A stretch of 64,000 nt of DNA from Spirochaetales bacterium (lineage in GTDB: Bacteria; Spirochaetota; Leptospiria; Leptospirales; Leptonemataceae): NCBI GenBank assembly GCA_015075425.1, contig JABTUL010000001.1:558001-622000 (forward strand). The letters are read 5' to 3'. The position numbers and the translations under genes were made by a program. Below the pieces are notes generated by a model. That model searched no databases, had not been told where the DNA came from, and saw nothing but the letters and a program-made list of their open reading frames with translations. Below, piece by piece: positions 28,566 through 45,643 of this stretch; the first letter of the stretch is position 1, and each line of letters opens with the position of its first letter.

Positions 28566-29123
28566 ATGCCTTTAGAATCACCTCGCAACTGGTGGCAGCC
28601 CTTCAACAAAGAAGAGCGTCTCTGGTTCTACATCATCACCGCCTGGGCCTTTGTGATGTTCCTGATGATGCCTCTCGGGCATCTGTGGAACCACAATGTA
28701 CCCCAGGAAACCTACAAAACCACACCTGCTGAATTCAAACAGGTAACAGACGACTTTATCGCAAAGCACCAGCGCAAAGATGCAGAGGGCAAACCTGTTA
28801 TGATGAGCGGACTGGAAGTCGTTGACGCTCCGATTGGCAAGGATGCCTTCTTGATTGCACAGGCCTGGAAGTTCAGACCGGTGCTGGTGCTCAAGAAGGG
28901 GCAGACCTATCGCATTCACATGTCCTCTCTGGACTTTCAGCACGGGTTTTCTTTGCAGCCACAGAATTTGAATCTGCAGATCCTGCCGGATTACAGCTAT
29001 GTAGTCACCCTGCAACCCAATGAAACGGGAACGTTTCACATTGTCTGCAACGAATACTGTTTTTATGCAGGGCCACAGATGGGACATGATACCATGGTGG
29101 GTCGCATTATTGTTGAGGAATAA
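28566..29123 (+). CDS. CuA-binding subunit II of a heme-copper enzyme (NOR-type)
   Basis: A 185-residue electron-entry subunit with one N-terminal membrane span (about residues 20-40) and a periplasmic cupredoxin domain. CuA ligands are visible as H126 (DFQHGFSL), C161 and C165 (CNEYC), H174 and M177 (GHDTM). The second Cys and the His are 9 residues apart where normal CuA sites have 4, an insertion of five residues. About 70 residues lie between the membrane span and the cupredoxin core. It is followed 2 bases later by the catalytic subunit. Confidence 0.85.
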   Translation: MPLESPRNWWQPFNKEERLWFYIITAWAFVMFLMMPLGHLWNHNVPQETYKTTPAEFKQVTDDFIAKHQRKDAEGKPVMMSGLEVVDAPIGKDAFLIAQAWKFRPVLVLKKGQTYRIHMSSLDFQHGFSLQPQNLNLQILPDYSYVVTLQPNETGTFHIVCNEYCFYAGPQMGHDTMVGRIIVEE

Positions 29124-29125
29124 CT

Positions 29126-30718
29126 ATGAATATAACAGAAATCAGTAAACAGTTTCGTACCTGCGAAACAACCGGACTCAAAGTCCATCTACCGGCGCAG
29201 CGGCTCATCTGGATCAATGCTGTACTGGCGGTGGTATTCCTGCTTGTTGGTGGAATCATGGCACTGCTCATCGCGCTAACGCGCTGGCCCGCCGTGCATC
29301 TGCTTCCGCAAGACCTTTTTTACCGCTATATCACAGCGCACGGAACCAATATGCTCTATTTCTGGATCGTCTTTTTTGAGATGGCCGGACTTGTCTTTGG
29401 AGCATCCATTGTCCTTGGAGCGCGCTGGCCTGCCGTAAAATTTGCCTGGTTCAATACCATCATGATGGCCGTCGGGGCTATTATGACCAATGTGATGATC
29501 TTTGCCGGCAAAGCCGACGTGATGTTTACAGCTTACCCGCCGCTTAAAGCAGATCCCTTATTCTATCTGGGGATTATCCTTTTTGCTGTGGGTGCTCTGC
29601 TTTACAGCTTCCATTTTCTAATTGCCCTGGCTATCGCTAAAAAGGAAGGCTGGCAACAGGGATCGCTTCCACTCTTTACGTTTGGTCTGGTGACTGCGGC
29701 GATCATCGCTATCTTCACCCTGCTCATGGGAGCAACGGCCTACGTGCCCGTGTTCTTCTGGTCGATGGGCTGGATAGACTATGTGGATCCGGAATTTTAC
29801 CGCATTGCTTTCTGGGGTTTTGGTCATTCGGCACAACAGATCAACCTGGCTGCCATGGTGGCCATCTGGTATCTGCTGGCGCACCTGACGACCGGAGCGG
29901 TTCCCGTGAATCAGAAGATGTGTCGTCTGGCTTTCCTTTTCTATCTGCTGGGTATCAACATGGGAGCTATCCATCACATTCTGGTGGACCCGGGTCTGTC
30001 ATCTACCTACAGGATTTTTAACACAGCTTACCTGTTCTATCTGGCCGTCATCGGCTCACTCATTCATGCCTTTTCCATCCCTGCGGCCATTGAAACGGCG
30101 CAGCGCAAAAAAGGTCTGACCAACGGCCTGTTTGAATGGTTGATCAAAGCTCCCTGGGGCAATCCGGGATTTTCCGGCATGTTCCTGAGCCTTGTGATCT
30201 TTGGATTCGGGGGCGGCGTTACCGGTATCATCCTGTCTGTCGAGCAACTCAACATGCTTTCTCACAACAACCTGCGTGTACCAGGACACTTTCACATGAC
30301 TGTAGTGGGCGGAACGACTCTGGCTTTCATGTCGCTCACCTACTACGTGATACCTCTGGTGTTTCAGCGCAAACTGATCGGTGAGGCCTTTGCTAAATAC
30401 CAGCCCTGGATCTTTGCCATCGGCGTTTCCACCTTTGCCACCGGCATGCATTTTGCCGGAGTCATGGGCGCTCCGCGACGCCATTGGGATGTTTCTTTGA
30501 AGAATGCGATCTTTCAGGTTCCCTTTGATGCGGCCATGAACACTATGCTTGCTCTGGTGGGTATCGGTGCTATCATAGCCTTCACCGGGTTACTCATTTT
30601 CATTCTAATTGCAGTTCTCTCTGTCTTTTTTGGCAAGAAAACTGCCCCCAAAATGCAGGAGCATTTTCCGCCCTTTGAGCCGACCGGTGCCGCTGTGCCC
30701 CGTCCGGCCAGGGCTTGA
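29126..30718 (+). CDS. Heme-copper catalytic subunit, probable alternative nitric oxide reductase
   Basis: A 530-residue, roughly 12-span subunit I. Low-spin heme ligands H72 and H390, proximal high-spin heme ligand H388 (PGHFH), and CuB ligands H234, H283 and H284 (MGAIHH) are all present. In oxidases the helix VI motif is H-P-E-V-Y, whose Tyr is cross-linked to the CuB His; here it is H234-S-A-Q-Q238, so the Tyr is absent. It also lacks the glutamates typical of cNorB helix VI. With its CuA partner and the nir genes nearby it is best read as one of the non-canonical NO reductases of the superfamily (eNOR/sNOR/gNOR-like); which one needs phylogeny. It would reduce 2 NO to N2O. Confidence 0.85.
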   Translation: MNITEISKQFRTCETTGLKVHLPAQRLIWINAVLAVVFLLVGGIMALLIALTRWPAVHLLPQDLFYRYITAHGTNMLYFWIVFFEMAGLVFGASIVLGARWPAVKFAWFNTIMMAVGAIMTNVMIFAGKADVMFTAYPPLKADPLFYLGIILFAVGALLYSFHFLIALAIAKKEGWQQGSLPLFTFGLVTAAIIAIFTLLMGATAYVPVFFWSMGWIDYVDPEFYRIAFWGFGHSAQQINLAAMVAIWYLLAHLTTGAVPVNQKMCRLAFLFYLLGINMGAIHHILVDPGLSSTYRIFNTAYLFYLAVIGSLIHAFSIPAAIETAQRKKGLTNGLFEWLIKAPWGNPGFSGMFLSLVIFGFGGGVTGIILSVEQLNMLSHNNLRVPGHFHMTVVGGTTLAFMSLTYYVIPLVFQRKLIGEAFAKYQPWIFAIGVSTFATGMHFAGVMGAPRRHWDVSLKNAIFQVPFDAAMNTMLALVGIGAIIAFTGLLIFILIAVLSVFFGKKTAPKMQEHFPPFEPTGAAVPRPARA

Positions 30719-30727
30719 GGAGGTTTT

Positions 30728-30856
30728 ATGAGCAAAGAAAAAGAAAAAATGCACGCGCCAGGTAGTTTTGTGCTGGCGCTCATTTTCCTTGGCTGGTTTG
30801 TGCTGGTGTACTTTGTACAATGGGCCGCTCTGGCCCAGAACTGGGTAATTTATTGA
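30728..30856 (+). CDS. Small single-span membrane subunit
   Basis: A 42-residue protein with a basic start (MSKEKEKMHAPGSF) and one span (VLALIFLGWFVLVYFVQWAA). Its ATG lies 9 bases after the catalytic subunit, behind GAGG. It resembles the tiny accessory subunits of heme-copper enzymes. Its TGA stop is shared with a TTG that is a likely start of the next gene. Confidence 0.7.
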   Translation: MSKEKEKMHAPGSFVLALIFLGWFVLVYFVQWAALAQNWVIY

Positions 30857-32928
30857 GTGTGACCGGCCCCCTGCTACGATTTTTGCGCCTGCTTGAGTCA
30901 GCATGGGGCCGGGTCTTTCCGGCGCCCTACCAGTTTTTCTATTTTCTCGGGGCCATGCCGATTCTCCTTCTTGTCATTCTCTTTTTAACCGGTCTTTACC
31001 TTTTTATCTATTATAGTATGGCGGTGGAGTCCACTTACGCCTCTTTGCAATACATGACGGAAAGGGCCTGGGGTGGGCGTTTCATGCGCGGGCTTCATCG
31101 TTACGCTGCTGACGCCATGGTTTTTTTCACGCTACTCCATATGCTGCGTGTCTGGCTGGAGGGCCGTTACCAGAACCACCGTCGCCTGGCCTGGTGGACC
31201 GGGATCGGGATATTGGTGCTTCTACTGATTCAGGGGGTCACCGGGTACGTGATGCCTCTGGATTCTCAGGCGCACTTTGTGCTGGAGAAGACCGCCGAGC
31301 TTTTGAGTTCTTTGCGTATCTTCGGGGATACGCTGCCTCGCTCCTTTTCATCGCCGGCTCTGATGGGCAAATGGATCATGTGGGTGATTCTGATCATTCA
31401 CTTTGCCATACCTCTCTTTTTTATATTTCTCATTTTTCTTCATGTAAAACGCATTGCCCGGGCTCGTATTCTACCACCCACCCGGCTGGGCGTGGCTTTT
31501 GGTGCAGTTCTTGTCCTGGTTACTCTGTTCTTTCCGGTCCGCATGCTATCTGAGGCCGATGCATCGCAGTTGCCCTTCCTTGAACATTCCAACTGGTTCT
31601 TTTTATTTTTTGCGCCGTTTTTACGCGAAGGTCACAATTTACAGGTTTTCGCTTTTTTTGCTGCGGTGACTCTGCTCTTAACGGCAATCCCCTGGCTCAC
31701 GCGCGCTCCGGTAATCGAGCCGGCAAAAGTGGACCTGGATAAATGCACAGGATGTACCCTTTGTGCACTGGACTGCCCCTATGAGGCGATTCGCATGCGG
31801 CCCCGCCCGGATGGCAAACATAAGCTGGAAGCGGTTGTCGATGCTGATCTTTGTTCCGGATGTGGTGTGTGTCTGGGATCCTGTGATTTTGATGCCATGG
31901 CTTTTGCGAACACGCCCAATGCGGACTGGGAAACGAGGATGCGTGAGCTGGTGGAAAAGCGCCCCGGAGATTTCATTGAGATTGTTTGCGATAAGAACCG
32001 GGCAGCCCCGGCCCTGAAGGGGGAGTCTGTGCTGGCTGTGCGCTGCACGGGAATCCTCGGACCCGCTCTGACAGACACTGCCCGGAAATTGGGAGCCCGG
32101 GGGATTTTGCTGGGTGCCTGTCGCATGGGTGATTGTGCCTATCGCGAGGGGAACAGCCATACCCTGGCGCGCATGGAGAATCGGCGCAAGCCCTATCTCA
32201 AACGAGTGAAAGATTTTCCCGTACAGATGATTTCTTTCAATCCCGTAGAAGGTCAGGACTATGTGGATCTGCAAAAGCTTGCCCGCGAGTCGCAGGGCAG
32301 AGGACTTTTTTCCCGCCAGACCGTCCGGCCAGTTCACCTCTTCCTGGTTGCGCTGACCGTTGCCATGCTGGGCTTCGCTTTTTATGCCGGGGCGCTCGCC
32401 AACTACGGTACCGTAGAACCGATCCGGGATAGAGCGCTTCTGCGACTCGATTTTTTTCGCCTGACCGGTTCTACATCCTGCAATCTGGATACGATCCCGG
32501 CAGATAAGCTCAGTGCCCTGCGCAAAGAAAAAATGGATCGCATCGGTTTTGGGAATCTGGATCCTGAAGCTCAGGTGCGGATTCGCAACAACATTGAGGA
32601 AGGTATTAAGGAACAATTTTGTTCCCGCAGCAGGCGACCTTTGAGGGTAATTGTAACTCAGGATGGTCAGCGCGAGGAGAAGATCTACCAGCCCTCCGGC
32701 CTGCAAAACGATGGCATGGTCTATGTCCTGCGAAAACTGTATTTACCTCCAGGCAAACATCATATTACCGTGCGCACCTCTGAAATCGACGGGGAAAAAG
32801 AAGAGGCCATTGTGGAAGCGGATCTGGAGCTGGAATTCAAGCCGGGACAGGTACATTTCCTCGATTTTGATCGGGCCAGTCAAAGTTTCTTTTTGCGCAA
32901 CCCGAAGAGAGGACAGGATGGTCGCTAA
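30853..32928 (+). CDS. Cytochrome b - 2[4Fe-4S] ferredoxin - MvhD fusion protein
   Basis: About 691 residues. The N-terminal 230 residues are a bis-heme cytochrome b (helix B ligands in LHRY and LLHML, helix D ligands in IIHFAIP and FLHVKR, each pair 14 apart). Two further spans lead to a ferredoxin domain with CTGCTLCALDCP and CSGCGVCLGSC. Then comes an MvhD/FrhD-like iron-sulfur domain (VRCTGILGP, LGACRMGDCAYREGN), another membrane span and a soluble C-terminal domain of about 170 residues. It probably passes electrons between quinol and a cytoplasmic partner in connection with the NOR. The start is TTG 30853 (TTGA overlap) or GTG 30859; the frame is open from ATG 30820. Confidence 0.85.
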   Translation: MSVTGPLLRFLRLLESAWGRVFPAPYQFFYFLGAMPILLLVILFLTGLYLFIYYSMAVESTYASLQYMTERAWGGRFMRGLHRYAADAMVFFTLLHMLRVWLEGRYQNHRRLAWWTGIGILVLLLIQGVTGYVMPLDSQAHFVLEKTAELLSSLRIFGDTLPRSFSSPALMGKWIMWVILIIHFAIPLFFIFLIFLHVKRIARARILPPTRLGVAFGAVLVLVTLFFPVRMLSEADASQLPFLEHSNWFFLFFAPFLREGHNLQVFAFFAAVTLLLTAIPWLTRAPVIEPAKVDLDKCTGCTLCALDCPYEAIRMRPRPDGKHKLEAVVDADLCSGCGVCLGSCDFDAMAFANTPNADWETRMRELVEKRPGDFIEIVCDKNRAAPALKGESVLAVRCTGILGPALTDTARKLGARGILLGACRMGDCAYREGNSHTLARMENRRKPYLKRVKDFPVQMISFNPVEGQDYVDLQKLARESQGRGLFSRQTVRPVHLFLVALTVAMLGFAFYAGALANYGTVEPIRDRALLRLDFFRLTGSTSCNLDTIPADKLSALRKEKMDRIGFGNLDPEAQVRIRNNIEEGIKEQFCSRSRRPLRVIVTQDGQREEKIYQPSGLQNDGMVYVLRKLYLPPGKHHITVRTSEIDGEKEEAIVEADLELEFKPGQVHFLDFDRASQSFFLRNPKRGQDGR

Positions 32929-33541
32929 ATCCCTGCCTGTATTTCTGGCATTCTTCGCTTTCTTTTGTGAAGATCGTTTTGTTTCTACGGCATCGCATCC
33001 GCTTCTGGCCGCAGCAGAAACAATTGATCGGGCCGGTGACTTAAAGCAGGCAAAGGACCTGTTACTCAGGGCAAGCAAAGATGAGGCCCTGGCCGTGGAA
33101 GCAGGCAAGTACCTGGAGCAGATCGATCAGCGCAGAGCAAAAGCAGACGATTGCATCAGGGACCTGAATGTAGCCATAAAAAGTAATATCTGGCCCAACC
33201 GGGCCAACAAGCTCCATTTTCAGCTGGCTGTTTGTCAGGAACTAAAAGGCGATGAGGAAGCAGCCATGAGATCGTACGACCGCTCCATTGAGCTGCGTTC
33301 CACCCTGCCGGTGGCCTTTGTAAGGCGCGGGCTTCTAAAAGAGGCACAGGGTGATCGGGAGGGTGCGCTGCAGGATTTGAAAGCAGGTTCAGCAGATTAT
33401 TTACCCGGCCGGCTCATTCTGGGTCTTTTTTACTGGCGACACGGAACCATTGAGCTGGCCCGCGCCGAGGCCCGCTATTTGCTGGAACGGAGGCCGGAGT
33501 ATGCCAGACTGCTCACGGGCATCATTGAGGAAAAGCTATGA
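32918..33541 (+). CDS. TPR-containing lipoprotein
   Basis: A 207-residue protein with a lipoprotein-like signal (FLAFFAFFCEDRF) and TPR-like helical repeats (AAETIDRAGDLKQAKDLLLR; ELKGDEEAAMRSYDRSIELR; AQGDREGALQDLKAG). It would be a periplasmic scaffold or assembly factor. ATG 32918 overlaps the cytochrome b fusion gene by 11 bases and its end overlaps the SCO gene (ATGA), so it belongs to the NOR operon. Confidence 0.75.
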   Translation: MVAKSLPVFLAFFAFFCEDRFVSTASHPLLAAAETIDRAGDLKQAKDLLLRASKDEALAVEAGKYLEQIDQRRAKADDCIRDLNVAIKSNIWPNRANKLHFQLAVCQELKGDEEAAMRSYDRSIELRSTLPVAFVRRGLLKEAQGDREGALQDLKAGSADYLPGRLILGLFYWRHGTIELARAEARYLLERRPEYARLLTGIIEEKL

Positions 33542-34143
33542 AAGGCAGACTGTTTGTACTGCGGATTATTGGAATTCTGGCCTTCATGAGTGTCGGTTAT
33601 ATTATTTATTATACGATTGGATCCGGGAAGCCGCGCTCTTTCTGGCAGGATAAACTGGAATCGATCAACCTTTACGGCCAGAAGGGCAAATTTGTAGACG
33701 CATCGGGAACGCCGGTGGATCTACTATCTCTTTCCGGACGTCCCGCGCTCTTTTCCTTTGTTTTTCTTAAGTGCCGCCTGAGCTGTCCGGTTATCATTCA
33801 TGAGCTGAAGAAAGTACGGCCGCTCCTTCCCGGAGAACTGCGTTTTGTTTTGTTTTTATTCGATGAGGAGCGGCAATCCAGAGAGGACCTGGAGGAATTT
33901 TTCCGCACCTATGAGATCAATGCAAAGGACTGGCTGGTTTTACAGGGAGAGAAGGATGATATTTCTTCTCTGGCACGCGTCTTTCGTCTGCAGTATTCGG
34001 AAGCAGAAGAAGATCGGTACAACTACATGCATACCAATTTTTTTGCCCTGGCCGACTCTTCCGGGCAGATTAAGCTGCAAATACGGGGCTTTGAAAAGGA
34101 CAGTGAGGATTTCTATCGTAAGATTGCGGAGGCACTGCAATGA
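33538..34143 (+). CDS. SCO1/SenC-family copper chaperone
   Basis: A membrane-anchored thioredoxin-fold protein that delivers copper to CuA sites. It has an N-terminal span, the copper-binding CRLSCP (CxxxCP) and a downstream His in MHTNFF. Length 201 is normal. Its place in this operon fits maturation of the CuA subunit encoded at 28566. Confidence 0.88.
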   Translation: MKGRLFVLRIIGILAFMSVGYIIYYTIGSGKPRSFWQDKLESINLYGQKGKFVDASGTPVDLLSLSGRPALFSFVFLKCRLSCPVIIHELKKVRPLLPGELRFVLFLFDEERQSREDLEEFFRTYEINAKDWLVLQGEKDDISSLARVFRLQYSEAEEDRYNYMHTNFFALADSSGQIKLQIRGFEKDSEDFYRKIAEALQ

Positions 34144-34466
34144 AGGAACAAAGGGGCAGGATCATTTCTATACTGCTTTTTATTCTGGGTATTTCTGCTT
34201 TGATTGGTGCGGATACCTATAAAGATTTTTTCTTTGAAATGCAGGCCAAGATTTCCGGCAGCGGAATCAACTATCAGGCGCTGGCGGAATTTTGTGGCTG
34301 GACCGGCGCTAAAAAACCCGGCGAAACGGATACCGAGCGGGGAATTCGTGCCGCCTGGAATATGGGTAGCGCCATGATGGGAATGTCTGCTCTGGCCGTT
34401 CTCCTTTTCCTTCTGGTCGCCGGCATTATCTTTGGTCTGTTTTATATAACGGGCAATTTTCGATGA
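34140..34466 (+). CDS. Two-span membrane protein of the NOR operon
   Basis: A 108-residue protein, not recognised. Spans at about residues 7-24 and 84-103 enclose a 55-residue, probably periplasmic loop (including ALAEFCGWTGAKKPGET). Both ends overlap neighbouring genes by 4 bases (ATGA), so it is firmly part of the operon. Confidence 0.65.
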   Translation: MKEQRGRIISILLFILGISALIGADTYKDFFFEMQAKISGSGINYQALAEFCGWTGAKKPGETDTERGIRAAWNMGSAMMGMSALAVLLFLLVAGIIFGLFYITGNFR

Positions 34467-35203
34467 AAATTCGGTTGCTGGCTCTTGCCGGAAGTCTGCT
34501 CACCGTTGCTGCTCTGGTAATTAAGTTCTATTTTATACCTGCCACCGGGCAGTTTGTGGAATTGACCATCAGGGATCAGATGATGCGGGACCTGGCAGCG
34601 TTTGAGCGGACGGTGCTCGTCGTCGTATCCGCAGCCGGCACAGATCGTGATTTTGTCCGCCGCGCCCTGTACTCCATTTCTGAAGATCCAGAAATTCCTA
34701 TCGAGCTGCGTCGCTCTCAATTCTTAATGGAACAATTTGGACCGCGACCGGATCGCGAGCCACAAAACGATGTGGAGCGGGCTGTTTTTGCCAGCGCCGT
34801 GCCGGCCTTTATAAAAAATGAAGATTCCTATCAGGCCATCTACCCTTTACGGGCCACCGGCGTCTGCATGCGCTGTCATTTCGATCGCGCCGGCAAACCA
34901 ATACAGCCCGGAACGGTGATCGGGCTGGCGGTAAAATCGGTTCCGCTGGCCTCCATCCAGCAGTCGAGTGTCATGTATTTCATCATGGACCTTTTCTGGG
35001 AAAATCTGCTCATGGTGGCCGTGGGCGTGGGCACCATGCTCTTTTTTGTTTTCTTCTGGATCTTTAAACCTCTGAGTCTGATTCAAGAGCGTCTGGATGC
35101 CATCTACAGGGAGAGGGCTGAAGAATGGCAGCTGGATGAGTATGTGCAGCTGGGCGAATGGGAGCGGCTGGTGCGAGCCATCGAGTTTCTCATTAAAGAG
35201 TGA
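34463..35203 (+). CDS. Membrane c-type heme protein (DUF3365/Tll0287-like)
   Basis: A 246-residue protein with an N-terminal span, a periplasmic domain carrying one heme c motif CMRCH and the AIYPLRATGVC context of Tll0287-like domains, a second span (LLMVAVGVGTMLFFVFFWIF) and a cytoplasmic HAMP-like helical tail. Such domains form sensor modules for redox or gas ligands; here no kinase output follows, so it could be a heme-based electron carrier or a truncated NO sensor. Confidence 0.72.
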   Translation: MKIRLLALAGSLLTVAALVIKFYFIPATGQFVELTIRDQMMRDLAAFERTVLVVVSAAGTDRDFVRRALYSISEDPEIPIELRRSQFLMEQFGPRPDREPQNDVERAVFASAVPAFIKNEDSYQAIYPLRATGVCMRCHFDRAGKPIQPGTVIGLAVKSVPLASIQQSSVMYFIMDLFWENLLMVAVGVGTMLFFVFFWIFKPLSLIQERLDAIYRERAEEWQLDEYVQLGEWERLVRAIEFLIKE

Positions 35204-35344
35204 TCGGAAAGAGTCGTCGGCAACAGGCTCAGTCCGGCGCCGTGCCCTCCCATTTTGTACTTCTATATCTGCAATTGCCTTGACCGGATCCCGGCGGAAA
35301 ATTCCATGGATACTGAGACTAAATCTCAAAAAGTGGAGCGAGCC

Positions 35345-36334
35345 ATGCCGTTTTCTCAAAAAGTTTCTTCCCTTATCTTTTTTGCCCTGGCGCTCTGTAC
35401 AGCTCTCCGTGCAGAAAAAAGGCTGCTTCTCGTGCTTTCCGGCCCGCCCGCTGCGGTAAGTTTTCCCCTGGCCTATATGGTGGCCAGAGGTTCCCTGGCG
35501 GATCTGGCGCAAAGAGTCGAATTCAGAACCTGGATGACTCCCGACCAATTGCGCAGCATGGCACTGGGAAAGGAGGCCGACTTTATGGCGATGCCTTCCA
35601 ATGTTGCGGCGAACCTGTACAACCGCGGCGCGCCGGTGCGTCTGGTCAATATTTCCACATGGGGCATTCTCTATCTGGTTTCGCGCGGGAAGCCGCGGAC
35701 AACGCTTGCTGATTTCAAGGGTGAAGAGATAGCCATGCCCTTCCGCGGCGATATGCCGGACATAGTCTTCCAATTGCTGGCAGAAAAACAGAACCTCAAG
35801 AGCCAGGATTTTACTTTGCGCTATGTGGCTTCTCCCCTGGACGCAATGCAGCTTTTGCTCATGCGCCGGGTAGATCATGCACTTCTGGCCGAGCCCGCCA
35901 TCTCCATGGCCCTCAGGCGCAGCGGTTCCTTCCCTCTGAAGCTTGTGGCCCCTGAACTTTCGCGCAGCCTCTCTTTGCAGAAGGAATGGGGCCGGCTCTA
36001 TGCGCGTGCCCAGGAGATGCCTCAGGCGGGGATTGTGGCTGTAGGCGAGGCCGGAACAAACCGCCAGCTGATTGCGGAAATGCACCGGCGCTACAGCGTT
36101 GCTCTGAAAGAATGCCAGAAAGATCCGGATGCTTGCAGCCGCACTGTGCAGCCTTTTCTCAGCCGTCTTATGCCGGAAGCCATTGCCGATTCGATCCGGA
36201 TCAGCCCCCTGCGTTCTGTAGCGGCCGCAGACGCTGCCACAGAGCTAAAATTTTTTCTGGGGCAACTGCATGCCAGAGAGGCGGCTCTCCTTGGTGGTAA
36301 AATGCCGGCCGAATCTTTTTACCGCTGGCCCTGA
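35345..36334 (+). CDS. NitT/TauT-type ABC transporter substrate-binding protein
   Basis: A 329-residue periplasmic protein with a signal peptide (LIFFALALCTALRAEK) and an NMT1/SsuA-like fold (PLAYMVARGSLADL, GKEADFMAMPSNVAANL, TWGILYLVSRG, RRVDHALLAEPAISMAL). ATG 35345 follows GGAG. It is followed by its permease and ATPase genes. The substrate is unknown; homologues near denitrification genes suggest an anion or a cofactor precursor. Confidence 0.82.
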   Translation: MPFSQKVSSLIFFALALCTALRAEKRLLLVLSGPPAAVSFPLAYMVARGSLADLAQRVEFRTWMTPDQLRSMALGKEADFMAMPSNVAANLYNRGAPVRLVNISTWGILYLVSRGKPRTTLADFKGEEIAMPFRGDMPDIVFQLLAEKQNLKSQDFTLRYVASPLDAMQLLLMRRVDHALLAEPAISMALRRSGSFPLKLVAPELSRSLSLQKEWGRLYARAQEMPQAGIVAVGEAGTNRQLIAEMHRRYSVALKECQKDPDACSRTVQPFLSRLMPEAIADSIRISPLRSVAAADAATELKFFLGQLHAREAALLGGKMPAESFYRWP

Positions 36335-36345
36335 AGCTGCAGTAG

Positions 36346-37128
36346 ATGAGAAAATGCATTGATATTTTTGGAAGTGCAATGGGCTACCTCTGGGGAGGCT
36401 GGTCTTCTCTGGCCACTCTCTTTTTGTGCCTGGCCGTATGGCAACTTCTGAGTGAATCCTACAGTGATTTGATTTTACCGGCACCTCTGGCTGTTTTTTC
36501 GAGTCTCTTTGAAATAATGACCGCTGGCCCAGGCCTTGAGGAGCTCGCCATAACAGCCCGGCGTGCTCTTGTGGGATTTATTCTGGCCGTCATTCCAGGC
36601 GTATTCTTTGGCCTGGTGGCCGGTTACAGCATGACCGGTTCTATTCTTTCACGACCCATCGTTTCCTTGCTTCTGGGAACGCCGCCCATCGCCTGGCTGG
36701 TGCTGGCGCTTATCTGGTTTGGTACCGGCGACGGCACTCCAGTATTCACGGTGCTTCTGGCAGCGCTCCCGGTCATTTTTCTGCAATCCATGCAGGGCAT
36801 GAGGACTCTGGATGGACACCACAAAGAGCTGGCCCGGGCCTTTCGCATTCCACTGTGGATGCGCTGGAAGGATATTTTTCTACCGCACATTCTGTCTTAC
36901 GTGCTGCCAGCGCTTATTACGGCACTCGGTATTTCCTGGAAGGTTGTTGTGATGGCCGAGCTTCTGGCCACGGACCGTGGTGTGGGCGCGGCTCTTTCTG
37001 TGGCGAGAACCTGGCTTGATACCAGAGCCGCGCTGGCCTACATTGCAGCGGCTGTGGGTCTCCTTCTTTTTATCGAATATGCTTTCCTTGAGCCACTGAA
37101 ACGTCAGATGGAACGCTGGAGAGATTGA
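36346..37128 (+). CDS. NitT/TauT-type ABC transporter permease
   Basis: A 260-residue integral membrane protein with the binding-protein-dependent transport fold. The EAA loop reads ELARAFRIPLWMRWKDIFLP, which contacts the ATPase. GTPPIAWLVLALIWFGTG is typical of the SsuC/TauC group. It lies between the binding protein and ATPase genes. Confidence 0.9.
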   Translation: MRKCIDIFGSAMGYLWGGWSSLATLFLCLAVWQLLSESYSDLILPAPLAVFSSLFEIMTAGPGLEELAITARRALVGFILAVIPGVFFGLVAGYSMTGSILSRPIVSLLLGTPPIAWLVLALIWFGTGDGTPVFTVLLAALPVIFLQSMQGMRTLDGHHKELARAFRIPLWMRWKDIFLPHILSYVLPALITALGISWKVVVMAELLATDRGVGAALSVARTWLDTRAALAYIAAAVGLLLFIEYAFLEPLKRQMERWRD

Positions 37129-37130
37129 AG

Positions 37131-37970
37131 ATGGAAGCACATACCTTTCTTCACGCCAGAAATCTCAGCTACAGCCGCGGCATGGACCTGATCTTTTCCG
37201 GTTTTGATCTTGAGCTGCGGGCCGGGGATCGGGTGGCCCTGGCCGGCCCATCGGGCTCGGGCAAGACGACTTTCATGAACCTGTGCGCGGGACTTCTGGA
37301 CGTGGAAGAAGGAGAGCTGGAGCGAAATTTCAATCGCATGGGCTATGTGTTCCAGACGCCGCGTTTGCTGCCCTGGAAGAACGCCGCAGAAAATATGGCG
37401 CTCGGTCTGAAGGCTGCGGGAATACCGGCCGGCCTGCGCAAACAAAAGTGCCAGGAACTTGCCGCAGCCATGGGCCTTAAAGCCGATGACTTGAACAAGT
37501 ATCCCCATCAGCTTTCCGGTGGTATGCAAAATCGAATTGCTCTGGGGCGGGCCATGGTTCTGGAACCCGACTTGATTTTGCTCGATGAACCCTTTGCGGC
37601 GCTGGATATTGGCCTCAAGCAGGAGATGATGCAACTGCTACAAAAATTGTGTCGCCCGGACGCGGCAATGCTTTGTATTACACATGATTTAATGGAAGCC
37701 GTCCAGCTCTGTGATCGTATTTTGCTTATCTCCGGGCGTCCGGGTGAGCTGGTTGCGGAAATTCAACTGGAGAAGGCGTCGGGACTGACCGGCGAAGCCT
37801 CCGTATTTTCCCGAACCGCAGAACTCATGGAGAACGCCATTGTGCGCGCTGTATTTGATCTGCCGCCGCTCACCTTTGCCGAGCGACTCGGTCCAAACAA
37901 AGTGCGTACGGAGGGCCACAGAATTCAGGTTTTTCCGTCCAGAAAATACAGTCGGTCCGAGGCCTGCTGA
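37131..37970 (+). CDS. NitT/TauT-type ABC transporter ATPase
   Basis: ATP-binding subunit with Walker A (GPSGSGKTT), Q loop (YVFQTPRLLPW), signature (LSGGMQNRIALGRAM) and Walker B (LILLDEPFAALD). ATG 37131 follows GGAGAG at good spacing; TTG 37125 would overlap the permease stop (TTGA). The 60-residue C-terminal extension is slightly longer than usual. Confidence 0.9.
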   Translation: MEAHTFLHARNLSYSRGMDLIFSGFDLELRAGDRVALAGPSGSGKTTFMNLCAGLLDVEEGELERNFNRMGYVFQTPRLLPWKNAAENMALGLKAAGIPAGLRKQKCQELAAAMGLKADDLNKYPHQLSGGMQNRIALGRAMVLEPDLILLDEPFAALDIGLKQEMMQLLQKLCRPDAAMLCITHDLMEAVQLCDRILLISGRPGELVAEIQLEKASGLTGEASVFSRTAELMENAIVRAVFDLPPLTFAERLGPNKVRTEGHRIQVFPSRKYSRSEAC

Positions 37971-37973
37971 TCT

Positions 37974-39164
37974 GTGGCTTTTACAAATCATCCCCTCTGG
38001 TACGCCGCTTTCCGGCCCTTCTTTCTGCTGACCGCAGTCCTGGCCGTCCTTTATGCCATACTCTGGGGCCTTGTTTTTTTGGGGGGAATTTCCTTTCCGG
38101 GAGCCCTGAAAGAAGTGGGACCGATTCTCTGGCACGCTCATACGATGCTTTCGGGAGTGGTGCTGGCCTCAGCCGTCGGATTTTTGCTCACAGCTCTGCC
38201 GGAGTTCACGGGCCAGCCCTTTCCTTCACGGAAGGCAGGGATGCTTCTCTGTCTGCTTTTTGCTACCGGGCAGCTGGCGCTCTTTGTTCCCGGAGGTCTT
38301 TTTCTTTCTTTTTTTGCACAGATGGTGCTGCTTGTCTGGCTCCTGTCCTTTGCGCTTATGCTTTTGCGCGGACCAACCGGTCGCAAACATCGGAGCTTTG
38401 CCTGGGCGCTCTTTGCTCTGACAATAACCGTTGCAGGTTTTTACTACGATCTCTGGTCAGAGCGGAATTCTTTGCGCTTTTTGCGGGCGGGCGTTGGTGT
38501 ATGGATGGTATTGATCATTCTGGCGCTCAGCCGCATTTCCATGCGCATTCTGAATTTCTACTTACAGGAGATGAAAGATTCGGAAGTGTACCTGGCCCGT
38601 CCTCCGCGGCGCAACATTGCGATTCTTTGTCTGTCCTTGCATACCGCCGCCGAACTTGGTGCATTAAGTGCGCCTGTTCAGGGTTTTCTCTCCCTGGCTG
38701 TGAGCGCTTCTTTGTTTCATTTACTGAGCGACTGGCATCTGGGTCGGGTAGTACTCCGGCGTTATGTCTGGCCACTGTACAGCATTTATCATTTCATGGC
38801 CCTGGGTTACGGGCTGATGGGCTACTCTCTTCTTTCGGGAAGCCCCTACCAGAGCGCCGGCCGGCATCTTTTGATGATGGGTGGCATGGGAGTTTCTATT
38901 TATATGGTGCTCTGCATTGCCGGCCGGGCCCACAGCGGCCTTTCTCTGGAAAGGCGGGCGTACGTGCCGCTGGCCGTGATTTTTCTTTTCTCTGCGGTGG
39001 TATTTCGCCTGCTCTATGCTTTCTTTCCGGACCGGTCGTTTTTCCTCGTGGCCCTCGTCTGCTGGTCGATTCCGTTTTTCCTGTATATGGTTTATATGGG
39101 TCCGGTGCTCTGGGGCCGGCGAGCGGATGGACTCGAGGATGCCACCTCAGCCCCTCTTGAGTGA
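37974..39164 (+). CDS. nnrS: NnrS family protein
   Basis: A 396-residue, about 12-span heme- and copper-containing membrane protein that protects against nitrosative stress and is a marker of denitrification loci. Family motifs: HPLWYAAFRPFFLLTA at the N-terminus, WHAHTMLSG and LLTALPEFTG. The start is GTG 37974, 3 bases after the ATPase stop. It ends the plus-strand unit. Confidence 0.88.
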   Translation: MAFTNHPLWYAAFRPFFLLTAVLAVLYAILWGLVFLGGISFPGALKEVGPILWHAHTMLSGVVLASAVGFLLTALPEFTGQPFPSRKAGMLLCLLFATGQLALFVPGGLFLSFFAQMVLLVWLLSFALMLLRGPTGRKHRSFAWALFALTITVAGFYYDLWSERNSLRFLRAGVGVWMVLIILALSRISMRILNFYLQEMKDSEVYLARPPRRNIAILCLSLHTAAELGALSAPVQGFLSLAVSASLFHLLSDWHLGRVVLRRYVWPLYSIYHFMALGYGLMGYSLLSGSPYQSAGRHLLMMGGMGVSIYMVLCIAGRAHSGLSLERRAYVPLAVIFLFSAVVFRLLYAFFPDRSFFLVALVCWSIPFFLYMVYMGPVLWGRRADGLEDATSAPLE

Positions 39165-39455: not shown

Positions 39456-39853
39456 AAAAAGCCGGCCTTCTGTAAATAGGGAACATAGTCCCGGTCCCGT
39501 CCACCAATATGATCTAAGAGCCAGTGCGTTAGAAAATCAGCTATTTCTGAAGCCGGCAAAACCGAACTATTTTGCAGACGAAACCCCATCACTGCCAGAT
39601 GGCGCACAAAGGCGGCGTGTTCCTTTTTATGCGCGACCAGATCCGGATATCCAGATTTTTTCATGCATTCTTCTTCATGGGTGAAATGATCGCGCGCATA
39701 ATCCTTTAATTCTTGCAGCAAATTGCGCAACTCCGGTAACTCCAGGTTACCTTCTTTGTTTTGAAGTTTTTGCAGAAGATCGATCAGAACCGAATGCTGA
39801 TCATCTATACTCAGGATGCCCAGAGCGTAGGTAGCTTTTTCAAAAATGCCCAT
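39452..39853 (-). CDS. Bacteriohemerythrin
   Basis: A single-domain non-heme di-iron protein that binds O2 or NO. Ligand motifs are DDQHSVLIDLL, HFTHEEECMKKSGYP, HKKEHAAF and WLLDHIGGRDRDY. ATG 39853 overlaps the methyltransferase stop by 14 bases; an ATG at 39910 would add 19 atypical residues. In the nir operon it probably buffers or detoxifies NO. Confidence 0.9.
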   Translation of the reverse strand: MGIFEKATYALGILSIDDQHSVLIDLLQKLQNKEGNLELPELRNLLQELKDYARDHFTHEEECMKKSGYPDLVAHKKEHAAFVRHLAVMGFRLQNSSVLPASEIADFLTHWLLDHIGGRDRDYVPYLQKAGFL

Positions 39854-40595
39854 ATCCTGTCGAAAGAGATAACTCCGGTACAGCAAAAGATCTGGCACAA
39901 ACTTTTCCAATTACAATAATCGCCGGTGCAGAAATTTTTCCCTGCAAAGTATGAGCGTCTGAAAGACAGGAGTGGTGGATTTTTTCTTCCGGCGTGGAAG
40001 CGTTTTCCACTACGATAAGGGGAATTCTCCCATTCTCTTCATGTGGACCGGCCAGTGCCCGGGCAAGAGATCCTATATGGGCCACACCCATATACACCAC
40101 TATAGTATCGCGAGCCGGATCGATGCCGGTGAGATCGGGCAATGCGTCTTTGCGTGTGTGTCCCGATAAAAAAACCACCCGGTCCGTTGATTCGCGATGG
40201 GTAAGCGGAATTCCGGCACTGGCAGCCGCCGCCGTGGCCGCGGTGATACCGGGGACGACTTCACAGTCAATTCCTCTCTCTCTTAAATAGGCAAGTTCCT
40301 CGCCCCCCCGACCAAAGATAAAAGGGTCCCCCCCCTTAAGGCGCACAACCACGGAATACTTTGTCGAGTATTGGGCAAGGAGTTCATTGATTTCCTCCTG
40401 AGGCAGTGCATGTCGGGAAGCACGTTTGCCCACGTAGATCATTTCTGCATTTTCAGGGCAGAGTTCCAGTATCTCAGAAGCAACAAGGGCATCATAGAGA
40501 ACGGCGCCCGCCTCACGCAGGAGGCGGGCCGCTTTCAAGGTTAAAAGCTCAGGGTCGCCGGGTCCGGCTCCCAGAAGATAGACGCGGTTGCCCAT
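39840..40595 (-). CDS. nirE: Uroporphyrinogen-III C-methyltransferase (NirE/CobA type)
   Basis: Makes precorrin-2 from uroporphyrinogen III, the entry to siroheme and heme d1. Motifs: GAGPGDPELLTLKAARLL, YVGKR, VVRLKGGDPFIFGRGGEE, VPGITAATAAAASAGIPLTHR. Length 251 is that of a monofunctional enzyme. It lies 14 bases downstream of nirS, which supports a dedicated role in heme d1 synthesis; cobA would be the general name. Confidence 0.92.
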   Translation of the reverse strand: MGNRVYLLGAGPGDPELLTLKAARLLREAGAVLYDALVASEILELCPENAEMIYVGKRASRHALPQEEINELLAQYSTKYSVVVRLKGGDPFIFGRGGEELAYLRERGIDCEVVPGITAATAAAASAGIPLTHRESTDRVVFLSGHTRKDALPDLTGIDPARDTIVVYMGVAHIGSLARALAGPHEENGRIPLIVVENASTPEEKIHHSCLSDAHTLQGKISAPAIIVIGKVCARSFAVPELSLSTGYGHF

Positions 40596-40609: not shown

Positions 40610-42583
40610 TTAGTAAATGTCATGCCGGGAATTGTACACATTGAACTTCCCGGTTGGCGTGTGAACCCATTTGCCCGTGATCTTCTTTTTGAGCTGCAGG
40701 GTTTTGTCATCATAAACATAGACGGCGCCTTCCATCCATCCAGAGATCCAGACCTCATCTCCGGCCCGATTGTACTCCATGTGGACCACTCGATCCGGGC
40801 TGACTTTGATGTACTGGATGGTTCCTTTAGCAATGTTGTACACCCCTACCTGTCCGTTCATGCCTTCAATGGCAGAAAGAGGCATATCAAACCAAACGTT
40901 TTGGGACGCCGGGTGGGTCTTTACAAAAAGAGAACCCGCTGATTTGATCTCATGCGATTCCACAACCTTCCAGGCATGGGCCCGATTTTTTTCCGGATCC
41001 ACCCCGATAAACTGCAGTTTGGTGTCACTGATGAAGGTGGTGGCATACACAGGCCCGAATTTTGGATGCACAAAGTTGGCTCCGCGTCCCGGATGGGGCA
41101 CTTGAGCGGTATCGATGCACGGTCCAGGACCGGCCGGTGGCACCAGTTTGCCAAGCTTGGTGTCGATCACGCACATCTGGCTTTTGGCGTTAGCCGCTAC
41201 CAGAAAATAGCGCTTTTCTTTTTGGCCAGGAATGTTCACCCAGCCGCCATCATGCAGGGCATTGTTGGCCTTGATGCGCGTTTCTTTGGGTTTTTTGGGA
41301 TCTGTGTAGTCGATCATGTACACCCAGCCCGACTCTTTGAGGTTGGCCACCCAGAAGGGTTTTTCATCGGAAGCCACAATGGAGGCCACGCGGACTTCTG
41401 GCAGCTTGTTACCCGTCTTCCAGTCGCGTGAATCAGCCACAGAGGTAATCGAAAGCGGTTCCAGTGTTTCACCATCCATGATGGCATACTGCGAAGGAGT
41501 GTAGCAACCCACAATGGCATACTTATCCACAAATCCTGGCGCTTTGCTGCCATCGATGGAACGGGCGTCCCAGCAGGTCCGGCCCCGGGCAACGACTTGT
41601 GGTGTTTTAGAAAACAGGTCAATCAGGGTGATTTTTCCATCACGGCCAATGGCAAAGAAGTAGCGACCGGAATGCGATGAGCGCAAAATGTGTACGGCAA
41701 AGCCCGTATCCACAATGGTTTTCATTTCTTTGGTGTTACCGTCGATGATGGCCACTTTGCCGGCATCGCGCATCACAACTCCAAAGTAATTCTCAAAAGC
41801 GCCACCGGTTTCATCCTGGACCGGACGATCCTTTACGGGGACCTCAAGCTTCCAGTAACCGCGGGCTTCTTCCATCGAGAGGACGGGAATTTCCGGGGGT
41901 TCCATCTGGATGTAGCGGGCCATGATGTTGATTTCTCGCTCGCTCAGCATTTTCTCCCGGCCCCAGGCAGGCATTCCTTTGGGCGAACCGTTGACCAGAA
42001 TGGCTGTTAAAGCTTCCGTGCCTTTGCTTTTCGTGCCGCCACCTTTTACAAAAGCTGCCTGTACCACATGCCCTTCAGGCAAGAGCGACGGACCGGTAGC
42101 CCCCCAGCGCTGAGCTCCGTGGCAACCGGAACAGCGGTTGAAGAAAATGTTCTTGCCTTCTTCAAATTCTTTATCGTTAAGCGGTTCAAAGGCCGCAAGC
42201 GCCTCACCGCCCTTATCCTGGAACTCAAAATAGGCGATGATCTCATCGATTTCTTGATCGGTGAGAGGCAGGTTGGGCATCGGCGCCGGCCATTTTTTTG
42301 CCAGTTCCTTTGCCACCGGATCAGTTTTGAGCATGCCTGCCGGATCTTTGAGCCATTTTTTGAGCCAGTCTTTTTCGCGTCTTTCTGTAACGCCCTTCAG
42401 ATCCGGCCCGGTTGCACCGTCTCCACCGCCAAAGTTGTGGCAGGCAACGCAACCTTTCTGTTGAAAGTGTGTCTTGCCCGGTCCGTCAAACGTGGCGGCC
42501 GATTTCTCCTGTCTTTTCTTGCAGTCGATCGCAAGAACGGCGACCGCAAGGGCACAGGAGAAGATTTTCCATCTTACTCCCAT
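40610..42583 (-). CDS. nirS: Cytochrome cd1 nitrite reductase with an additional cytochrome c domain
   Basis: Periplasmic enzyme reducing nitrite to NO. The C-terminal eight-bladed heme d1 domain carries the proximal His in VHILRSSHSGRY, the two distal active-site His in ALHDGGW and PHPGRGANF, and the typical end TPTGKFNVYNSRHDIY. Before it stand two cytochrome c domains with CVACH (C45-H49) and CSGCH (C151-H155); classical NirS has one. Length 657 exceeds the usual 560 or so. The N-terminus is a signal peptide with possible lipid Cys (LAIDCKK). AAAGGAG precedes ATG 42583. Confidence 0.95.
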   Translation of the reverse strand: MGVRWKIFSCALAVAVLAIDCKKRQEKSAATFDGPGKTHFQQKGCVACHNFGGGDGATGPDLKGVTERREKDWLKKWLKDPAGMLKTDPVAKELAKKWPAPMPNLPLTDQEIDEIIAYFEFQDKGGEALAAFEPLNDKEFEEGKNIFFNRCSGCHGAQRWGATGPSLLPEGHVVQAAFVKGGGTKSKGTEALTAILVNGSPKGMPAWGREKMLSEREINIMARYIQMEPPEIPVLSMEEARGYWKLEVPVKDRPVQDETGGAFENYFGVVMRDAGKVAIIDGNTKEMKTIVDTGFAVHILRSSHSGRYFFAIGRDGKITLIDLFSKTPQVVARGRTCWDARSIDGSKAPGFVDKYAIVGCYTPSQYAIMDGETLEPLSITSVADSRDWKTGNKLPEVRVASIVASDEKPFWVANLKESGWVYMIDYTDPKKPKETRIKANNALHDGGWVNIPGQKEKRYFLVAANAKSQMCVIDTKLGKLVPPAGPGPCIDTAQVPHPGRGANFVHPKFGPVYATTFISDTKLQFIGVDPEKNRAHAWKVVESHEIKSAGSLFVKTHPASQNVWFDMPLSAIEGMNGQVGVYNIAKGTIQYIKVSPDRVVHMEYNRAGDEVWISGWMEGAVYVYDDKTLQLKKKITGKWVHTPTGKFNVYNSRHDIY

Positions 42584-42707: not shown

Positions 42708-43136
42708 TCATGATCGGGTCCAGTCTGTTCCGGGCCACGGAGAACGGCTGGCCTGTTCGATGGAGGTTGTTTCAAAAGCTTTGAGCATTTTATCTTTGCA
42801 CTGTTTCCAGGTGTCATGGACCGGGCAGGGATTGAGTTCATCGCAGACGGATACACCAAGCACACACATTTCAAAGCTCTTCATGCCATCAATGGCAAGC
42901 ATGAGGTCATGGATGGTGATTTTATCCGTGGGCTGAGCCAGAGCAAATCCGCCGGTTGGTCCGGTGATGGATTTTAAGTAATTTTTGTGAACAAGCTTCT
43001 GCAGTATTTTTCCCAGATAGCTCTGGGAAACGTTCAGGGCATCGGCAATTTCTTTGACACTGTGGAATTCTTTTTCCGAACGGGAAGCCATGTACAGGCA
43101 ACTGCGCAGAGCATAGTCCAGGGCTCTTGAAATCAT
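42708..43136 (-). CDS. Rrf2-family regulator, NsrR-like
   Basis: A 142-residue winged-helix regulator. The N-terminus RALDYALRSCLYMA, HTH VKEIADALNVSQSYLGKILQKL and wing GPTGGFALAQP are typical of Rrf2. Three cysteines in MCVLGVSVCDELNPCP match the [Fe-S] cluster region of NsrR, an NO-sensing repressor. It sits inside the operon it probably controls and overlaps the cytochrome c gene by 4 bases (ATGA). Confidence 0.88.
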   Translation of the reverse strand: MISRALDYALRSCLYMASRSEKEFHSVKEIADALNVSQSYLGKILQKLVHKNYLKSITGPTGGFALAQPTDKITIHDLMLAIDGMKSFEMCVLGVSVCDELNPCPVHDTWKQCKDKMLKAFETTSIEQASRSPWPGTDWTRS

Positions 43137-43474
43137 TGTTTTACCTCATTGGCTACAAAATAGACCACAGCATCGAGTTCCTTTTCATTGAGATGACCGA
43201 ACGAATCGGGCATAGCCGGGTAGCCAGCCACGACGCGCCGTCCCGGTTCCACGATAGATTCGCGGATGAAGGTAGCGTCGCGACTTTTCCGGGCATTCTC
43301 CAGTGAAGGCCCGCTCAGAGCGGGCTCTGAATCAAAACTGTGACAGGAGGAGCAATTTTCCTGAAATATGCGTTCGCCCAGAAGAGCAACTTCCAGGGTT
43401 GTTGTCCTGGCCGGCGCTGGCTCGCGACACGCTCCGGCGATGAGTGCGATGATAAAGGTTTTTTTAAGAAACAC
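43133..43474 (-). CDS. Monoheme cytochrome c lipoprotein (NirC-like)
   Basis: A 113-residue cytochrome c with lipobox (LIAGACREP), heme motif CSSCH and axial Met in YPAMPDSFG. Its location among heme d1 genes fits NirC or a c55x-type electron donor to NirS. Overlaps the nirDL-type gene by 11 bases. Confidence 0.85.
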   Translation of the reverse strand: MFLKKTFIIALIAGACREPAPARTTTLEVALLGERIFQENCSSCHSFDSEPALSGPSLENARKSRDATFIRESIVEPGRRVVAGYPAMPDSFGHLNEKELDAVVYFVANEVKQ

Positions 43475-44483
43475 GGCTCACCTTCTGGATCCAGTAGTCG
43501 TCCAACTCCGGCAGGAAGTAGCGCAGCCGTGTTTTCTTAAATTCTGTGGGGGACTCAAGCACCCGGTAATCGTCCAGCCCGGTCGCTTCTGAAAGTCGCG
43601 CGGCCAGCAGCATCAGATTCTGATGATCCTCTGCATGGAGCATCGCATACAGATTGTAGGGAAAATCCGGACAGGTCGTGCGGCCGTAGCAATGGCTCAC
43701 CTCCGGAAAGGCAGCCAGTGTCCGTCCCTTAACACTCAGTTCGCCAGGTTCCACGCGGAAAACGGTCATACCATTGGCCCGCACACCCATTTTCCGATGC
43801 CGGAATGTACCGATGTAACGGCGAACGATTCTACCTGATTCAGCTTTCAGAAAATCCAGCAGCCGATTTCCAGCAGCTTCGCTGCCCGATAGCTGATGAA
43901 AAGGGCGTTCACAGACGGGAAGATCACGCTGGGCCAGGCGGACCAGGTCAGCCGGCGGGAGCACAATGTCCGCCGGATCGAAGCTCATGAGTTCTTTTTG
44001 TTCGGTTTGATTCTGTCGACTGCGAAAATCAAAGGCTACACCAACTTTAAAGGTCTCCGTGCGCCGCAAAGGATAGAAGGCATCCACACCGGTCAGCTGA
44101 CTCAAGGCCGTCAGATGGTTTTCCAGACCCTGCTCATGGGGAACAGCAATGGTGAACCAGATGTTGTAGCTGTGGTTGCGTTCGTAGTTATGCGTCACCG
44201 TGGGGTGCTCACTGATGATATCCGCGACCTGTTCCAGGCGGCCTGCGTTTACTTTACCGCAAACGAGAGCGGAGTCGTAACCCAGAAGAGAACCTTCCAT
44301 GACGGCGGAGATTTCACGCAGCTTTCCCGTTGTTTTCCAGTCCTGCACCACAGCCAGCACCTCAGATTCCTTGAGGTCCATGCGCCGGGCCAGCTCGGCA
44401 TAGGGTCTTTCCTCCAGAGGAAAACCCTTCTGGATTTGCAGCGCCAGCAGGGCCTCCGTATCAGAATGAATGGTCGTTTGCAT
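43464..44483 (-). CDS. nirDL: Siroheme decarboxylase, fused NirD-NirL type
   Basis: Converts siroheme to didecarboxysiroheme in heme d1 synthesis. The 339 residues are two AsnC/Lrp-like units. The first has VTHNYERNHSYNIWFTI and the second EVSHCYGRTTCPDFPYNLYA, matching the catalytic motifs of NirD/L and AhbA/B proteins. No separate nirG or nirH is present, so this fusion may be the only decarboxylase. GGAGG precedes its ATG, which overlaps the nirF stop by one base. Confidence 0.88.
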   Translation of the reverse strand: MQTTIHSDTEALLALQIQKGFPLEERPYAELARRMDLKESEVLAVVQDWKTTGKLREISAVMEGSLLGYDSALVCGKVNAGRLEQVADIISEHPTVTHNYERNHSYNIWFTIAVPHEQGLENHLTALSQLTGVDAFYPLRRTETFKVGVAFDFRSRQNQTEQKELMSFDPADIVLPPADLVRLAQRDLPVCERPFHQLSGSEAAGNRLLDFLKAESGRIVRRYIGTFRHRKMGVRANGMTVFRVEPGELSVKGRTLAAFPEVSHCYGRTTCPDFPYNLYAMLHAEDHQNLMLLAARLSEATGLDDYRVLESPTEFKKTRLRYFLPELDDYWIQKVSRVS

Positions 44484-45643
44484 TACAGTCCTCCTTCAAA
44501 TGCGCGCCAGATGCCAAACATGCCGGCCGGTGAGGCGACGGGCGTGCGGTTGACAATGGAGCGGCTTGTGGTATCTACATGGATCACTTCGTTGGTTTCA
44601 TTGCTGGCAATAAGGGCACGCTGGCCGCGGGGCAGGAAAGCCAGATGGTAGATTTTCTTTCCGGCCTCCAGGCGATGGAGTTCCTCTCCGCTGAATTGAT
44701 CGAGAACCAGTACCGTCCCATCATAATCTTTTCCCGTCAGGGTTACGTAGGTTTCCGTAGAGAAAGGCCGGTTCATTACATAGATGGCATGGGCGGGAAG
44801 AGAAATGGTTTTCAAAACGGCGAAGCTCTGACTGTCCAGAAGCCACAATTTTTTCTGGCCAGGCACCGGAAGAAAAAGGGTTGTACCGTTGTCCGCCCAG
44901 CTTTCCAGATGCATCATTTTGGAAGGAGTCGTCTGATCATCGGTTGGCGGATCGATCTTCTGCACTTTCAGAGTTTTCAGGTCTAAAATGCTGATCGTTC
45001 CATCCTGGTGGCCGGCCAGGTAGTGGCTCCCCCGGCGGTTGATCAGGGCATCAAATGGACCGGAGCCGGCCAGCGCTACGCTACTTGCTCTGTAGCTCTC
45101 GCCCTGCTTTTGTAAAATCATGGCTTCATCGCCATCCATTAAGCTGGCCACAAACCTGCCTCCCGGTGCATCCACCAGACCCGTTACCCGGGACGGCTTT
45201 CCTTCACGAGTGCGGGCAGCAAACGTAGCTGTTATCTGAAAGGTTCCCGGATCCACAAGGGCGATCTGGCCTGGTTCATAGCCACTGACAGCGACAACAC
45301 TGCCATCGGCGGCAATGGCCTGACCGATGGCATTGCTACCAACAGAAAGACGATGGTCCAGAACTCGCCGGGAAAGATTGATGCGTAACAGTTCTCCCGT
45401 GCGTGTGGTCACAAAGGCCCAGCGTAAGGCTGGATCAAAGGACATGCTGGCATGACGAAGATTCGCTCCCGTGTCGATTCTATCTTTCACATGCCCATCA
45501 AACGGATTGAGAAAAACAATGTTCCCGGATTCTCTTTCAATCACCAGGACCTGCGCACCATCGGGATCGGCTTGACAGGCCGCGCCCAGGACGGCAGTTA
45601 GGGCGACACAGTAACCGCCGACCGAGCGCTGCAATGCTAACAT
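44483..45643 (-). CDS. nirF: Heme d1 biosynthesis protein NirF
   Basis: A 386-residue periplasmic lipoprotein (VLGAACQAD) with the eight-bladed propeller of the NirS/NirN/NirF family but no heme c domain. Typical stretches are LVIERESGNIVFLNPFDG and YVMNRPFSTETYVTLTG. NirF acts late in heme d1 synthesis as a dehydrogenase or chaperone. It overlaps nirJ by 7 bases. Confidence 0.85.
   Translation of the reverse strand: MLALQRSVGGYCVALTAVLGAACQADPDGAQVLVIERESGNIVFLNPFDGHVKDRIDTGANLRHASMSFDPALRWAFVTTRTGELLRINLSRRVLDHRLSVGSNAIGQAIAADGSVVAVSGYEPGQIALVDPGTFQITATFAARTREGKPSRVTGLVDAPGGRFVASLMDGDEAMILQKQGESYRASSVALAGSGPFDALINRRGSHYLAGHQDGTISILDLKTLKVQKIDPPTDDQTTPSKMMHLESWADNGTTLFLPVPGQKKLWLLDSQSFAVLKTISLPAHAIYVMNRPFSTETYVTLTGKDYDGTVLVLDQFSGEELHRLEAGKKIYHLAFLPRGQRALIASNETNEVIHVDTTSRSIVNRTPVASPAGMFGIWRAFEGGL

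Follow-up and report, generated by a model that had tools for sequence, protein, structure and literature searches.

An eNOR-type nitric oxide reductase predicted in a Leptospiria denitrifier, with a lengthened CuA loop and a linked cytochrome b/FeS/FlpD-like gene

The heme-copper NO reductase family known as eNOR reportedly goes back to Hemp and Gennis (2008), and Murali (2024) is said to be its founding paper. Members of the heme-copper superfamily differ in the residue at the position of the active-site Tyr, which is Tyr in the O2 reductases, Glu in cNOR and qNOR, Asn in sNOR and CuANOR (bNOR), Asp in gNOR, and Gln in eNOR (PMC8756737, Table A4). The partner of the catalytic subunit in eNOR is a cupredoxin subunit II encoded immediately upstream (PMC8756737), and the enzyme is stated to have been characterised biochemically as a NO reductase (PMC11388526). 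The window analysed here, a stretch of 64,000 nucleotides from a Spirochaetales bacterium of the Leptospiria, contains a gene pair that we interpret from its sequence features, with a probability of roughly 0.88, as a two-subunit eNOR of a Leptospiria denitrifier that would reduce NO to N2O. We file it as eNOR because of a Gln at the Tyr position, a cupredoxin subunit II encoded upstream, and its placement in the clade of Gln-type sequences (Q clade). As in the described eNORs, subunit I carries six His ligands and Gln at the Tyr position, the cupredoxin gene lies immediately upstream, kinship is to the B-family oxidases, and nir genes are linked in some genomes. It differs from them in its host lineage, Spirochaetota, in a CuA loop that is five residues longer in the Leptospiria clade of the window, and in a gene cluster that also encodes a cytochrome b/FeS/FlpD protein, a c protein bound to the membrane, and a TPR protein.

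The catalytic subunit I is encoded at 29126–30718 on the plus strand by an open reading frame of 530 residues plus stop codon, which matches Pfam COX1 with E=1.3e-63. When aligned with other heme-copper subunits I, His72, His234, His283, His284, His388, and His390 fall in the canonical ligand columns, where His72 and His390 correspond to the low-spin heme ligands, His388 to the high-spin heme ligand, and His234, His283, and His284 to the CuB ligands; the protein is thus predicted to hold both hemes and the copper ion. Gln238 aligns exactly with the column of the cross-linked Tyr (Tyr237 in the Thermus ba3 oxidase). Both observations agree with the preliminary description of this DNA, which had listed the six His residues and noted that the oxidase Tyr in helix VI is replaced, and the CuA partner that it named is likewise present as subunit II (see below). 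The nearest solved structures are those of Thermus ba3 B-family oxidase (E about 1e-43), and cNOR and qNOR (NorB) structures gave no PDB match to subunit I, even by profile search. Matches to NCBIfam are to oxidases only and all far below threshold, so this collection does not resolve eNOR. Annotation labels such proteins cytochrome c oxidase subunit I, and plasmid copies cbb3-type or b(o/a)3-type oxidase; with the subunit labelled as an oxidase, the step by which such denitrifiers produce N2O goes unnoticed. In one plasmid-borne eNOR, that of Thermus thermophilus (L037:8983-10665), HFK replaces HFH, which puts a Lys at the position of a low-spin heme ligand.

Among solved structures, Thermus thermophilus ba3 has the fold closest to both subunits. 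It shares every metal and heme ligand with the window enzyme, and its K-channel residues Tyr248 and Ser309 are kept as Tyr249 and Ser311, positions that may bear on the single, K-type proton channel expected of eNOR. The two enzymes differ in that Tyr237 is exchanged for Gln238 and Thr312 for His314, and Glu85, Gln237, and Asn240 are specific to the Q clade. Gln237, Gln238, and Asn240 are invariant in 35 of 35 Gln-type sequences, whereas Val, Tyr, and Trp occupy these positions in all 11 B-family oxidases, a pattern that does not arise by chance. The full set of clade-specific invariant residues comprises Arg11, Glu85, Gln237, Gln238, Asn240, Tyr273, Asn299, Tyr302, His314, Ser355, and Thr397.

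Two of these residues, Tyr273 and Tyr302, are missing from B-family oxidases and bear on an alternative reading, in which the protein is a B-family O2 reductase that has lost the classical Tyr, uses another one such as Tyr273 or Tyr302, and has O2 as its main substrate. That the closest structures are B-family oxidases is in line with this reading, and an O2 reductase role has been argued for the related, B-type sNOR (PMC6967387). We nevertheless find it very unlikely. The Tyr four residues after the helix VI His of B-family O2 reductases is replaced by Gln238, and Gln237, Gln238, Asn240, His314, and Glu85 are at once invariant and clade-specific; aa3 and cbb3 enzymes are already available in the genome, which has no other NO reductase beside its nirS cluster; and eNOR itself is reported to have been characterised for NO reduction (PMC11388526).

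The tree of 60 sequences, which included 35 of the Gln type together with A-family and B-family oxidases (B-family sequences from plasmid regions of Methylobacterium and Sinorhizobium among them), places all 35 on one side of a branch with SH-aLRT support of 91, short of 95, apart from the B-family (99) and the A-family (99); it was built without characterised eNOR sequences and left out the Rhodothermus marinus, Natronomonas, and Ardenticatena references. The preliminary description had taken a position among O2 reductases with an alternative active-site Tyr as an argument against NO reduction. The tree separates the protein from the B-family O2 reductases; as regards an alternative Tyr, all members of the clade have Tyr273 and Tyr302, either of which may lie near the active site as a substitute. 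Members of the Q clade come from Chloroflexota, Thermus, Alpha-, Gamma-, and Deltaproteobacteria, Nitrospirota, and Spirochaetota, and its share of Chloroflexota, Thermus, and Proteobacteria agrees with the published distribution of eNOR (PMC8756737). The neighbours of the window subunit I in the tree are sequences from Leptospiria, SAR324, and Nitrospinota, and the relatives of the genome assign it to Spirochaetota, class Leptospiria.

The remaining NO reductase types, sNOR, bNOR, gNOR, cNOR, and qNOR, were set apart by the published residue table and not by the tree. The sNOR and bNOR (CuANOR) enzymes of Nitrosomonas and Bacillus come close, being likewise B-type NO reductases with a CuA subunit and a SCO/SenC-type gene, but they have Asn at the Tyr position where the window has Gln. 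Neither this Asn nor the Asp of gNOR or the Glu of cNOR and qNOR is present, Gln in this position is found only in eNOR (PMC8756737), and the cNOR and qNOR structures are unmatched, so that assignment to one of these other types is exceedingly improbable. The preliminary description had called the protein a non-canonical NO reductase and possibly a new variant. The first part is supported, insofar as the residues, the tree, the gene content of the genome, and the neighbourhood all support an enzyme outside both cNOR/qNOR and the O2 reductases. The second is not, since the known eNOR family is defined by this very Gln in place of the Tyr, and relatives are encoded in hundreds of genomes (at least 584 stretches when each bacterial and archaeal species was scanned through one genome). 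Subunit I does not represent a new type of NO reductase; what is unusual about the locus lies in the CuA loop of subunit II and in the cytochrome b/FeS/FlpD-like partner, the latter unmentioned in the preliminary description.

Subunit II (28566–29123, plus strand; 185 residues) consists of one N-terminal membrane helix and a CuA cupredoxin domain, and matches T. thermophilus ba3 subunit II by profile with E=6e-22. All CuA ligands are kept (His126, Cys161, Glu163, Cys165, His174, and Met177). The spacer between Cys165 and His174 has eight residues instead of three, which gives C-x3-C-x8-H-x2-M in place of the canonical C-x3-C-x3-H-x2-M. The longer form is present in all relatives with at least 73% identity in subunit I and also in one Chloroflexota locus (L080), and the canonical loop is found in 91 of 102 loci, a number that includes some duplicates. 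A relative with about 70% identity (L011) has the canonical loop, which implies that the insertion arose within or near the Leptospiria clade. An AlphaFold model of the subunit (pLDDT 87.6) matches ba3 CuA structures, with values of only 66–71 in the loop. No insertions in the CuA loop were reported in the titles and abstracts searched. As judged from the alignments, the lengthened loop is an unusual part of the system, going beyond the preliminary description, and it offers a natural experiment on the binuclear copper site.

Immediately downstream of subunit I, a gene at 30820–32928 (plus strand) encodes a fusion protein of 702 residues with cytochrome b, 2[4Fe-4S], and FlpD-like parts, as identified from Pfam and NCBIfam, alignment, and a structural model (pLDDT 86.5). 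The bis-heme cytochrome b ligands are His93/His107 and His194/His208, and bc1/b6f cytochrome b is matched over about 290 columns. A ferredoxin domain with two [4Fe-4S] motifs (residues 302–360), an FlpD-like domain above the Pfam cut-off (about 404–457), a membrane helix (504–525), and a C-terminal β domain (about 540–697) follow. The protein thus shares with bc1/b6f cytochrome b the four-His bis-heme fold and an EWYFL-like DWFYL motif, which reads NWFFL in the window, is of the xDWFYL type, and lies at the position of the Qo motif; we take this to be the place of PEWYFL in bc1. Unlike bc1/b6f cytochrome b, it is fused to the 2[4Fe-4S], FlpD-like, and β domains, and no Rieske gene is seen beside it. 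Many loci of Proteobacteria have a separate open reading frame for the C-terminal domain, which supports the view that the partner and this domain form one functional unit.

The partner gene, the only copy in its genome, is closely tied to eNOR. A homologue is found in 52 of the 54 eNOR loci that could be tested, i.e., those with at least 5 kb of downstream sequence, with a median distance of 1.35 kb and a maximum of 4.5 kb, and the linkage spans many phyla. Defluviimonas carries the operon on a plasmid. Among 61 related genomes, the partner is present in 16 of 16 eNOR carriers versus 1 of 45 others (P=8e-14, a value in which kinship overstates independence). It is not obligatory, since no homologue lies near eNOR in T. 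roseum, Thermus, L080, and L116. In the literature searched, no paper connected eNOR with a cytochrome b/ferredoxin/FlpD protein; one open reading frame with FlpD and cytochrome b6 parts appears in PMC8756737, included only for its C1 cytochrome.

We infer that the partner probably delivers electrons to eNOR, and its linkage yields a hypothesis about the electron donor of this family that can be tested. More tentatively, and at somewhat less than even odds, eNOR may be fed by a dedicated membrane module from menaquinol and/or cytoplasmic low-potential carriers, without a bc1 complex, and the lengthened loop of the Leptospiria may retune the CuA site to this donor. In the reaction sequence that we propose, NO would be made by the NirS encoded next door, and the partner would probably draw electrons from menaquinol, or else from a ferredoxin-like donor in the cytoplasm, and hand them on towards CuA of subunit II, their presumed point of entry into the enzyme. 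From there they would move to the low-spin heme (His72/His390) and on to the high-spin heme (His388) and CuB (His234/His283/His284) of subunit I, where two NO would be converted to N2O. Because Gln238 stands where O2 reductases have the redox-active, cross-linked Tyr, this site would lack the extra electron donor that is used for four-electron reduction of O2. N2O would be the end product, as no nosZ was found.

The content of the genome is in accord with such a role. The only full heme-copper enzymes in it are aa3, cbb3 (ccoN above the cut-off), and the eNOR of the window, which means that it has neither cNOR nor qNOR, and NosZ was not found in the genome. Reduction of NO to N2O is the likely task of the enzyme, given the genes for NirS and heme d1, the lack of another NO reductase of the superfamily, and the lack of NosZ. 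Among the 61 related genomes, eNOR occurs in 9 of 12 NirS carriers versus 7 of 49 non-carriers (Fisher P=1e-4, again with independence overstated by kinship), and 7 of the 16 eNOR genomes are without a NirS match. NirK or NirS adjoins 12 of 38 long eNOR loci, and the eNOR cluster of a Turneriella-like relative encodes a NirK-type multicopper oxidase that includes a cytochrome c domain.

Downstream of the partner on the plus strand, a TPR-repeat protein (32663–33541), whose start is uncertain and whose gene overlaps the partner gene as listed, occupies the same place as a TPR gene in a relative (L155). It is followed by a SCO1/SenC copper chaperone (33538–34143; Pfam PF02630, E=1.1e-13), a probable CuA maturation factor of a kind present in many eNOR loci, by the small membrane protein orf108 (34140–34466), conserved in the subclade with homologues in L155–L158, L068, and L051, and by orf246 (34463–35203), a membrane-anchored monoheme c protein with a CMRCH motif that is weakly Tll0287-like (Pfam below cut-off). 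The last is conserved alongside eNOR in the subclade of the window, and is possibly an electron carrier or a sensor of NO or redox state. An ABC transporter (SsuA-like binding protein, permease, and ATPase; 35255–37970) and NnrS (37974–39164; Pfam PF05940, E=1.9e-66) complete the plus-strand series.

The nirS/heme d1 cluster lies 10 kb downstream of eNOR on the opposite strand. It includes a tetrapyrrole methyltransferase (39840–40595; Pfam TP_methylase), probably a uroporphyrinogen methyltransferase for heme d1 supply, the cytochrome cd1 nitrite reductase NirS with two N-terminal cytochrome c domains (40610–42583; Pfam Cytochrom_D1, E=2e-98, Cytochrom_C, and Cytochrome_CBB3), a Rrf2-family, NsrR-like regulator (42708–43136; family match), and genes for a NirDL-like siroheme decarboxylase, a NirF/NirN-like d1 protein, and a NirJ-like radical SAM protein (43464–46794). 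All components of the denitrification island named in the preliminary description, nirS, nnrS, and the NsrR-like gene, are thus in place. Rrf2-type regulators and NnrS are tied to nitrosative stress, and their presence nearby would fit the same enzyme serving NO detoxification rather than respiration. We regard this as unlikely, because the adjoining nir cluster implies respiratory production of NO, and both the CuA subunit and the conserved partner with its quinol-type cytochrome b point to a respiratory chain. The GC content of the island (53–54%, compared with 54% for the window) gives no signal of foreign origin, and no RNA family was found in the window with Rfam.

The C1-C2-NirS architecture is reported to occur in Chloroflexi only (PMC8756737). 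The NirS of the window, whose d1 domain is preceded by two cytochrome c domains, can be likened to it by domain layout, and several genomes of related spirochaetes encode full-length homologues. In 23 of 80 loci (e.g., L051:14984-16375, L152:6752-8182, L154:2717-4126, L071:9721-11199, and L089:9603-10925), though not in the window, eNOR is adjoined by a second protein of the heme-copper fold, about 470 residues long. It retains the three His ligands of the hemes but only one of those of CuB, and groups with eNOR in the tree on long branches, with no NCBIfam match; as the His pair of helix VII is gone, it is probably devoid of CuB. The eNOR clusters of relatives also contain genes for CtaA (heme A synthase) or heme O synthase (L155:6836-7843, L157:725-1753, and L158:2995-4017; L151:2712-3620), and a heme O synthase-like gene is found near eNOR in 35 loci, neighbours that hint at the heme type of eNOR.
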